DNA from: Candidatus Saccharimonadota bacterium
GTDB taxonomy: Bacteria > Patescibacteriota > Saccharimonadia > Saccharimonadales > Saccharimonadaceae
DNA: 64,000 nucleotides
Direction of reading: 5' to 3'
Assembly (NCBI GenBank): GCA_015999875.1
Contig: JAECRG010000002.1
Span: forward strand, 62,001 to 126,000
Below, piece after piece: positions 56,399 to 63,957 of the stretch. Numbering within the stretch: the first letter of the stretch is position 1; the number at the start of each line of letters is the position of its first letter. The notes below the pieces were generated by a model, which had not been told where the DNA came from, ran no database searches, and saw only the letters and a program-made list of their open reading frames with translations. A program made the translations under genes and the position numbers.

Positions 56399-56432
56399 TC
56401 GATAGTACAACGTGGTATTTTTGTGAAAAGTT

Positions 56433-56451
56433 CCCCCGCCTTTGGCGGGGG
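56433..56451 (+). terminator. Terminator before the dcw cluster
   Basis: CCCCCGCC-TTT-GGCGGGGG, then atttactctgttg. Confidence 0.75.
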
Positions 56452-56474
56452 ATTTACTCTGTTGTAGCGTAAAC

Positions 56475-56496
56475 TTATCCACAGAAGTGTGGATAA
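56475..56496. promoter_or_regulatory. Two perfect DnaA boxes, inverted
   Basis: TTATCCACA at 56475-56483 and its exact reverse complement TGTGGATAA at 56488-56496, 4 nt apart. The sequence is the high-affinity DnaA box of bacteria. The pair lies about 40 bp upstream of the mraZ -35, so DnaA may control the dcw cluster; an origin is less likely because no AT-rich unwinding region or further boxes are seen. Confidence 0.75.
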
Positions 56497-56529
56497 CGAG
56501 ACGTGGAACTGACAAAAAAGTCAAAAATG

Positions 56530-56562
56530 GGGGTTGCGGTGGGTAAAAGTGGGTAGTATGAT
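56530..56562 (+). promoter_or_regulatory. mraZ promoter with MraZ-type 10-bp repeats
   Basis: TTGCGG (56534-56539), 17-bp spacer, TATGAT (56557-56562). GGGGT, TGGGT and TGGGT start at 56530, 56540 and 56550, the 10-bp spaced repeats that MraZ binds in its own promoter in other bacteria. Confidence 0.75.
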
Positions 56563-56654
56563 GAGTCCAGTGGCAAACGTAAAGCATACGAACAAAAACA
56601 AACAAGTCCACTAAAACCACAACAATCAACACTTAAGCCCGAAAAGGAATCAGA

Positions 56655-57341: not shown

Positions 57342-58262
57342 ATGAGTATAAAAGAACACGTTCCACCACAGTCTCGTAACTCGAAAGAGTACGAGCTACA
57401 TGTTCCTGTACTTCTTGAAGCGACGCTTGATTTGCTCAAACCTCAAAAAGGGGAGAGCTATCTCGATTTGACTGCCGGTTACGGTGGTCATGCCGAGGCG
57501 TTTCTAGAGAAGACAGAAAACTACACTGATTCTGCATTAGTTGATCGCGACGAGTACGCCATAGGCCATCTCCAACGATTTTCCGAACAAGGCGTACGGT
57601 TGTTACAGACCGATTTCGTGAGCGCTGCTCACGAGTTACTCGCCGAGCAGAAACGGTTTGACATCGTAGTTGTGGATTTGGGAGTGTCGTCACCACAACT
57701 CGATCAAGGCGAGCGAGGGTTTTCTTTTGCTAAATCGGGTCCGCTCGACATGAGGATGGATCGTAGTCAAACTACGAGTGCAGAGACGATTGTGAATACT
57801 TATTCACAGGATGCTTTGTTCAATATCATCATGCGATACGGAGAAGAAAAGCGAGGCTTCGCAAGAAGAATCGCTGCCGAAATAGTAAACGGAAGACCAT
57901 TCTCATCCACCAAGGAACTTGCTGATATGATCGCGCACCTTCATCGTGGCAAATGGCAACGCGTCCATCCTGCTACACGCACCTTTCAAGCACTGCGAAT
58001 CGAGGTTAATCAAGAACTCGCGCAAGTGGAAGCGGTTTTACCACTCCTACCACGCCTTTTACACCAGAACGGTAGAGTAGGGGTGATAAGCTTCCATAGT
58101 CTCGAGGACAGATTGGTTAAGCAATTTTTTAAAGAACAGGCTGAGGCTGGCTTTGAAGCCGAGCTGCACTTGCTAAACAAAAAACCACTCGACGGTGCCA
58201 CCTATGATGTTCACAATCCGCGATCGCGTAGTGCAAAGCTACGTGGAGCAGTGAAAAAATAA
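57342..58262 (+). CDS. rsmH: 16S rRNA (cytosine1402-N4)-methyltransferase RsmH
   Basis: 306 aa, formerly MraW. LHVPVLLEATLDLL start, SAM-binding DLTAGYGGHAEAFL, DLGVSSPQLDQGERGFSF, GPLDMRMD and late RTFQALRIEVNQEL, FHSLEDRLVKQFF. It modifies the ribosomal P site and is a standard dcw member. It is expressed from its own leaderless promoter as well as perhaps from mraZ. Confidence 0.96.
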   Translation: MSIKEHVPPQSRNSKEYELHVPVLLEATLDLLKPQKGESYLDLTAGYGGHAEAFLEKTENYTDSALVDRDEYAIGHLQRFSEQGVRLLQTDFVSAAHELLAEQKRFDIVVVDLGVSSPQLDQGERGFSFAKSGPLDMRMDRSQTTSAETIVNTYSQDALFNIIMRYGEEKRGFARRIAAEIVNGRPFSSTKELADMIAHLHRGKWQRVHPATRTFQALRIEVNQELAQVEAVLPLLPRLLHQNGRVGVISFHSLEDRLVKQFFKEQAEAGFEAELHLLNKKPLDGATYDVHNPRSRSAKLRGAVKK

Positions 58263-63003: not shown

Positions 63004-63957
63004 ATGTCGGTTTTTTCACGCAAGTCTTCTCAAGATGCCGCGCCACCTCGTCGTCGGCGCTCGTTTGAAGATGGGGGTGAGCAACGTCAAGAAGAGCGCA
63101 AGCGTCAATCTGTCCAGTACAAACGTGGTCGGACACTAGCTGGTAGCACGAGCCACACTCTACGTGCCGCAGATACGCGCGCCCTCAACAACGCCACTCC
63201 TCGCGAAAAAGTGCATCATCTGACGAATTTACGACGTAAGCTCTCGTTGATTTTGAGTATCTCGCTCATTGCAGTTGTCGCGCTACTCATATTTCTGCAG
63301 CAGTTCACGGCAAGTACGCATGTTGAGTTTAGTGGAGATGCACGAGCTCAATCTACGAAAGCGTATGAGCAGGCGATTCAAGATTACCTGACGCAGAATC
63401 CACTGGAGCGCGTCCGTTTTAATCTTGATTCAGACAAGCTTAACGCATTTGTGATCGCTAAATTGCCAGAAGTTGAAAATATTGTTCCTGGTGGATATGT
63501 TGAGCCTGTGACCTCTAGTTTTGCTATTACGCTGCGTAAACCAGTTGTTAGCTGGCAGGTAGATGATAAATTATATTTTGTTGACTCACACGGTGTTTCG
63601 TTTACAAAAAATACTCATGACAATCCAGAGGTCAAGATTGTCGACAACAGTGGTGTGGAGCATACTTCTGGCACTGCTATTGCGAGCGCGCGCTTCTTGA
63701 CCTTTGTAGGTAAGGCTGTTGCACTTGCCGAGAAAAGCGGCCTAAATGTTACGCAAGCGGCTATTCCAGCCGGTACATCTCGCCAGGTGCAGCTCACTGT
63801 CGATGGCCATGAGTATCCAATTATTATGTCGATAGATCGTGCGGTAGGTGAGCAAGTTGAAGATATGGGCAGGGCAATCGCATTCTTTGATAAGCAAGGG
63901 CGAAAGCCACAGTACATCGACCTACGTGTTAAAGGCAAAGTATTCTTTAGGGAGTAG
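63004..63957 (+). CDS. FtsQ/DivIB-like division protein
   Basis: 317 aa. A long basic cytoplasmic region (1-78; many Arg), one membrane helix (LSLILSISLIAVVALLIFL), a POTRA-like domain (VEFSGDARAQSTKAYEQAI onward) and a beta domain with the FtsQ-typical PVVSWQVDDKLYFVDSHGVSF. Position after murG is standard for ftsQ. It links FtsL and FtsI in the divisome. Confidence 0.88.
   Translation: MSVFSRKSSQDAAPPRRRRSFEDGGEQRQEERKRQSVQYKRGRTLAGSTSHTLRAADTRALNNATPREKVHHLTNLRRKLSLILSISLIAVVALLIFLQQFTASTHVEFSGDARAQSTKAYEQAIQDYLTQNPLERVRFNLDSDKLNAFVIAKLPEVENIVPGGYVEPVTSSFAITLRKPVVSWQVDDKLYFVDSHGVSFTKNTHDNPEVKIVDNSGVEHTSGTAIASARFLTFVGKAVALAEKSGLNVTQAAIPAGTSRQVQLTVDGHEYPIIMSIDRAVGEQVEDMGRAIAFFDKQGRKPQYIDLRVKGKVFFRE

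Follow-up and report, generated by a model that had tools for sequence, protein, structure and literature searches.

The dcw promoter region and its inverted pair of DnaA boxes

Saccharibacteria are tiny bacteria, which mostly live on other bacteria. The stretch of DNA analysed here (the window, 64 kb in length) contains the start of the dcw (division and cell wall) operon of a member of this group. The operon begins with mraZ, whose product matches PF02381 with 49.6 bits at a cut-off of 23, and continues with rsmH and the division PBP (PF00905/PF03717). Two DnaA-type boxes are found upstream of the mraZ promoter, and the region is organized as follows:

56432..56452, + strand: terminator-like stem-loop of the upstream gene, which separates this gene from the dcw promoter
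56475..56483, + strand: distal DnaA box TTATCCACA, exact 9-mer match
56484..56487, no strand: 4-bp spacer GAAG between the two boxes
56488..56496, - strand: proximal DnaA box TTATCCACA (TGTGGATAA on the + strand), the half retained by the outer families
56529..56554, + strand: MraZ-type direct repeats GGGGGT-TGCG-GTGGGT-AAAA-GTGGGT with a 10-bp period, overlapping the core promoter
56534..56539, + strand: TTGCGG, inferred -35 hexamer for mraZ and the dcw operon, read from sequence and comparison
56557..56562, + strand: inferred -10 hexamer TATGAT at 17-bp spacing, read from sequence and comparison
56569..56612, + strand: conserved 5' leader with the arms AGTGG (56569-56573) and CCACT (56608-56612) and an A/C-rich loop
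56655..57017, + strand: mraZ, GTG start, first dcw gene (PF02381, E 3.8e-13)
57342..58262, + strand: rsmH (mraW), second dcw gene (PF01795, E 1.3e-87)

The mraZ promoter was inferred from conservation, and a strict consensus scan made no call there. Among the aligned promoters, TTG occupies the -35 place in 67 out of 68 cases, a count to which the anchoring score contributes, as it favours TTG itself.

Together with the spacer, the two boxes form the 22-bp inverted pair TTATCCACA-GAAG-TGTGGATAA (56475-56496), and the window contains no further exact TTATCCACA. The first-pass annotation had described two exact boxes, which face each other 4 nt apart and precede the promoter by about 40 bp. Both statements are borne out by the coordinates of the boxes, 56475-56483 (+) and 56488-56496 (-), and by the 37 bp that separate the proximal box from the inferred -35 hexamer. 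It had further been claimed that the probability of a chance occurrence is negligible. At least two exact matches anywhere in the window were obtained in 10 of 100 dinucleotide shuffles; two adjacent matches are a different case, and the pattern TTATCCACA-N(0-12)-TGTGGATAA occurs only once in the whole 1,039,764-bp (1.04-Mb) assembly. Clusters of TTWTCCACA sites are restricted to the pair upstream of mraZ and an array at dnaA. The term "minimal cell", which was used for this organism, is loose wording for a genome of around 1.04 Mb of the Saccharibacteria type. Genome-wide, 19 TTWTCCACA sites are present compared to 34 matches of the reversed control pattern, which suggests that the motif is avoided outside of functional places.

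Box identity and location of the replication origin

The gene for the host DnaA protein (PF08299, E 6.5e-24) is located on a different contig of the same assembly (G000:C3, position 654276). Domain IV of this protein is standard and carries the GRKDHTTA signature, which is likewise the case for almost all relatives. Just upstream of dnaA lies an oriC-type array with TTATCCACA at positions 653011 (+) and 653043 (-) and TTTTCCACA at position 653094 (-) of contig G000:C3, and a similar array is found near dnaA in nearly all relatives examined. In these organisms, the oriC regions contain the words TTTTCCACA (53 occurrences), TTATCCACA (26) and TTATACACA (9), and the dcw boxes use the same 9-mer words as the oriC of their own genome. 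Both 9-mers of the window match TTWTNCACA, and the variants found in relatives mostly stay within this motif.

GC skew had been proposed in the first-pass annotation as a check to exclude an origin at this site, and it was computed for around 304 kb of the genome itself and 400 kb of the complete genome of a congener (G001). In the congener, dnaA is located at around 1 kb, and the skew switches there and near 0.55 Mb. The mraZ pair is found at 333 kb in the middle of a chromosome arm with positive skew, whose sign does not change at mraZ. On the contig that contains the window (G000:C1), the skew is positive throughout. At the pair, none of the oriC features looked for was found: there is no skew switch and no dnaA/dnaN neighbourhood, and two boxes are present rather than an array. 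An origin at this position was rejected, since dnaA and its box cluster lie on another contig and since, in the congener, the sign of the skew changes at dnaA and not at mraZ, the two being 333 kb apart.

Conservation of the boxes at the dcw promoter

Conservation in related genomes had also been suggested as a check, and almost all mraZ promoters examined from the order are preceded by boxes, which keep a constant place with respect to the promoter. A search of 101 genomes gave the exact pair in 19 of them, in one copy each, always upstream of mraZ and always with a 4-bp spacer, even though 0 to 12 bp were permitted. When two mismatches were allowed, the pair was detected in 93 out of 393 genomes from the order, nearly always as a single copy, and matches to the reversed control were rare. 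In a scan of 84,980 species genomes, three of the 80 exact-pair loci listed adjoin mraZ (L201, L206 and L219), all of which belong to Saccharibacteria or Saccharimonadia; among the matches listed, the pairs found elsewhere are mostly chance occurrences or other DnaA sites.

The regions upstream of mraZ were compared in 68 genomes, which were anchored on the core formed by the -35 hexamer and the MraZ boxes. A TTWTNCACA box is located between -70 and -34 relative to the -35 hexamer in 67 of these 68 promoters, the exception being G054; as the genomes are related, such promoter counts are not independent events. The 20 bp between -60 and -41 contain 97 boxes, compared to 18 over all remaining scanned positions, and the boxes cluster in two narrow places, near -59 on the + strand and near -45 on the - strand. 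In 52 of 58 promoters, the start of the proximal box lies 43-47 bp ahead of the -35 hexamer, and its distance varies far less with respect to the -35 hexamer (sd 4.4) than to the start codon (sd 14.6). Where a box has moved, its shift tends to be a whole number of helical turns, about one turn being favoured (p ~0.002 in a cosine test, for 15 sites that are not phylogenetically independent).

Both boxes are intact in 35 relatives, and 33 of them have a 4-bp spacer. It is the length of the spacer that is conserved and not its sequence, as 27 different spacers occur among the 35 intact pairs. The 40 distal boxes comprise 25 copies of TTATCCACA, 12 of TTTTCCACA and three other TTWTNCACA words. 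Within the boxes, variation is confined to positions at which DnaA tolerates it: position 3 is A or T and position 5 is mostly C and rarely T, A or G, while flanks and spacer are near background; since the boxes were picked by a regular expression, the invariance of the fixed positions is partly due to construction, whereas position 5 was free. In outer families, for instance in G061, G066, G075, G083, G090 and G093, the proximal box is found alone. In total, 19 promoters were classed as having a single proximal box, two of which do possess a second box at a spacing of 5-6 bp. A group within the home family (G009, G023, G024, G031, G037 and G058) has the distal box alone. In other orders of the class, one box is found near the MraZ repeats at some mraZ loci (families f41, f42 and f47), and no box was found near mraZ in the sampled families f38, f39 and f43-f45. 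It may be that a single site came first and that the inverted pair is characteristic of the home order. Taken together, the order-wide comparison strongly supports the assignment of the pair as putative DnaA sites.

Retention of the boxes in genomes without mraZ

No mraZ could be detected in several genera, including g2 and g11, in which rsmH is the first dcw gene. In these genomes, the GTGGGT repeats are gone from the region upstream of rsmH, yet the boxes remain in several of them. Relative to the -35 hexamer, they are located at -59/-46 in G334, -58/-45 in G269, -60/-47 in G265 and G371, and -43 (- strand) in G012; counting by hand gave -59/-46 for G033, a + strand box at -59 for G015 and a + strand box at -50 for G004 and G132. 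Shifted boxes are found in G013 (-70/-56, around one helical turn) and G203 (-90/-77, around three turns). Since the boxes stay upstream of rsmH after the loss of mraZ, it is the dcw promoter, and not mraZ, to which the DnaA-type site is tied. The site is not indispensable, as boxes are missing in G054, which has mraZ, and no boxes were found near rsmH in the mraZ-less genomes G014, G257 and G341. A separate observation concerns DnaA itself, whose domain IV is clearly diverged outside the DHTT core in the mraZ-less genera g2 and g12 (L047 of G004 and L048 of G014); G014 has also lost its dcw boxes.

Alternative explanations for the box pair

The promoter is shared with MraZ boxes, and the proximal half of the pair has the orientation of these boxes and differs by one base in the comparison of GTGGATAA with the MraZ box GTGGGTAA. 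The pair could thus be part of an MraZ operator and serve MraZ autoregulation without any involvement of DnaA. However, the boxes stay in place in genomes without detectable mraZ, in which the GTGGGT repeats of the core are lost, and the two sets of words are separate: 126 of 135 MraZ boxes, that is, of the GTGG-cored words found in core promoters, are GTGGGT with any preceding base, whereas the boxes upstream of the promoter read TGTGGA(T/A)AA. In the group that possesses the distal box alone, its orientation is opposite to that of the MraZ boxes. An MraZ operator was largely rejected, as the pair is inverted, consists of other words and persists without mraZ, while the true MraZ-type repeats are located at 56529-56554; this explanation is very improbable. 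The operator of another dimeric transcription factor recognizing TTWTCCACA-N4-TGTGGAWAA is likewise improbable; inverted symmetry and a constant 4-bp spacer would fit a dimeric repressor or activator. For an obligate dimer, however, it would be unusual that one half occurs alone in the outer families and the other half alone elsewhere, and the sequence is exactly that of the DnaA box at the oriC of the same genomes.

The same occurrence of single halves bears on the possibility that the pair is no protein-binding site at all, but an RNA or DNA hairpin acting as terminator, attenuator or 5' leader element. The strand can indeed fold into a 9-bp hairpin, and the region has a z-score of -4.65. 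However, the hairpin would lie upstream of the inferred promoter and thereby outside of the dcw transcript, it lacks a T tract, and a separate terminator-like stem is present at 56432-56452. Furthermore, many relatives retain one half alone, six of the 35 intact pairs are mismatched between the arms at position 3, and the stem sequence remains a DnaA box instead of covarying freely. That each half is lost alone in some relatives fits sites for monomers and not a hairpin. An RNA hairpin was rejected for most relatives based on the retained single halves and the missing T tract, and the chance that a hairpin accounts for the pair is close to nil. DnaA sites that are not part of promoters are also known, such as datA and DARS, and a pair of high-quality boxes in inverted geometry outside of oriC could have a function in replication, as a secondary origin, a datA-like titration site or a DARS-like site for the reactivation of DnaA, and be located in front of mraZ by chance. 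This is likewise highly unlikely: neither a skew switch nor dnaA is found at the pair, and a titration or reactivation site would have no reason to keep its distance to the -35 hexamer constant within a few bp when that to the gene varies, or to stay with the dcw promoter after mraZ has been lost.

Proposed function of the box pair

The pair is best explained as a DnaA-binding regulatory site of the dcw promoter, to which we assign a probability of roughly 0.83 based on comparative evidence. Two DnaA molecules would bind to the two boxes in inverted orientation, with the centre of the site around 80-90 bp upstream of the transcription start, and would influence RNA polymerase from a fixed helical face. 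Should DnaA regulate the promoter, activation is the likelier outcome, a guess at the sign that is based on position, and repression would be rather unlikely. The position of the centre around 80-90 bp upstream, the fixed helical face and the A-rich DNA in between argue for an upstream activator site rather than a site for a steric repressor. MraZ would occupy a repressor-type place at the core of the same promoter, which is covered by MraZ boxes, and DnaA would act alongside it. As a consequence, mraZ-rsmH-ftsL-pbp-ftsW and the following genes would track the level or nucleotide state of DnaA as well as MraZ. DnaA occupancy, contact with RNA polymerase, the sign of regulation and any effect on division timing are predicted.

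The sites probably link replication to division in Saccharibacteria, since they survive where the remaining control region has changed. That DnaA controls the dcw cluster had already been proposed in the first-pass annotation; the promoter-fixed boxes and their retention after mraZ loss in several genomes speak for this proposal, whereas the coupling to transcription and division remains a prediction. It is tempting to speculate that a single promoter drives the whole dcw operon throughout the Saccharibacteria and is read by DnaA from an upstream site on a fixed face and by MraZ at the core, with the DnaA input outlasting MraZ. The odds of such a two-input switch are about even; if it exists, the initiation of replication in these epibionts would directly signal division at the level of transcription.

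Comparison with known systems

The site bears on the coordination of replication initiation with cytokinesis, and it is already known that DnaA regulates division genes. The closest precedent is ftsL of B. subtilis, to whose promoter region DnaA binds in vivo according to the account of Goranov et al. (2005) given in a review (PMC8203912); in this organism, ftsL and rsmH are part of one operon (PMC11019786). Both cases have in common that DnaA sites are located at the promoter of a division gene; however, DnaA binding was shown by ChIP in B. subtilis, whereas the putative site of Saccharibacteria was recognized by comparison. The latter further differs in that it is an inverted pair with a 4-bp spacer at a fixed distance, belongs to the promoter that heads the complete dcw operon and is found order-wide. 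Protein levels of the B. subtilis ftsL operon were unchanged when DnaA binding to two origin boxes was blocked (PMC11019786), so that binding of DnaA to a promoter of this kind may be of little consequence. In Caulobacter crescentus, DnaA controls ftsZ, mipZ and gcrA and binds the ftsZ promoter in vitro (PMC8203912). DnaA acts there as a transcription factor tying replication to division genes, as is proposed here, but on other genes in other bacteria, and the described target is not the leader promoter of the dcw operon.

In E. coli, DnaA activates or represses nrdAB and can activate by stabilizing the RNA polymerase complex (PMC8203912). The presence of DnaA boxes in the promoter region is shared with Saccharibacteria; however, the target is different, and regulation has been shown experimentally and involves an ATP-DnaA-specific box. 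Three boxes were also found upstream of E. coli ftsZ, which do not act on ftsZ transcription (PMC8203912), demonstrating that boxes alone prove nothing. The case made here stands above that of E. coli ftsZ because of the phasing with the promoter and the retention after mraZ loss. MraZ itself binds the operator motif (AAAGTGKN3)3 at dcw promoters of Mollicutes (PMC5282649), and the expression of the dcw genes of M. genitalium rises in its absence (PMC8475190). The MraZ-type direct repeats with a 10-bp period in the dcw core promoter of Saccharibacteria resemble these operators, whereas the DnaA-type pair lies further upstream as an element of its own, which persists without mraZ.

No report of a promoter-phased, order-wide DnaA element heading the dcw operon of Saccharibacteria was found in the open-access literature searched. 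In much of an order of genome-reduced bacteria, the promoter that leads the division operon carries a DnaA-type site at a retained distance, and in several lineages this site has outlived the loss of the operon's own regulator. The proposed link between replication and division can thereby be addressed by a 22-bp mutation.

Further conserved features of the dcw locus

Several additional features were observed around the pair. In many relatives, for instance in G085, G029 and G090, extra copies of the MraZ-type GTGGGT repeats are found downstream of the -10 hexamer, around three helical turns off. The 5' leader of the dcw mRNA forms a short stem with an A/C-rich loop in most relatives, which starts at about the inferred TSS. 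Its arms co-vary, as seen for GTAGAT/ATCTAC (G334 and G265), TAGCG/CGCTA (G004), TAGAC/GTCTA (G012) and TAGTC/GACTA (G006), and stems of 5 bp or more are present in 79% of the 75 leaders compared to 33% of shuffles. A search of Rfam gave no meaningful match for the pair region including the 5' leader. The stem is a neighbouring conserved feature and not part of the DnaA site. In many members of the family, the distal box is preceded at around 10-20 bp by a weakly conserved CTCTGTTA-like stretch (in the window TACTCTGTT, at around 56456-56464), which may be bound by another protein or may be the end of the upstream terminator.

Another box, TTTTCCACA, is located behind the operon, at position 126201 of contig G000:C1, past the end of the window and after the open reading frame at 63004-63957, and at position 341820 of contig C1 of the congener G001. 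It is found around 245 bp after the last dcw open reading frame in a 61-bp noncoding block, which is 88% identical and has neither a tRNA nor an Rfam match. In both genomes, this box is surrounded by AAAGTCAAATA-like motifs.
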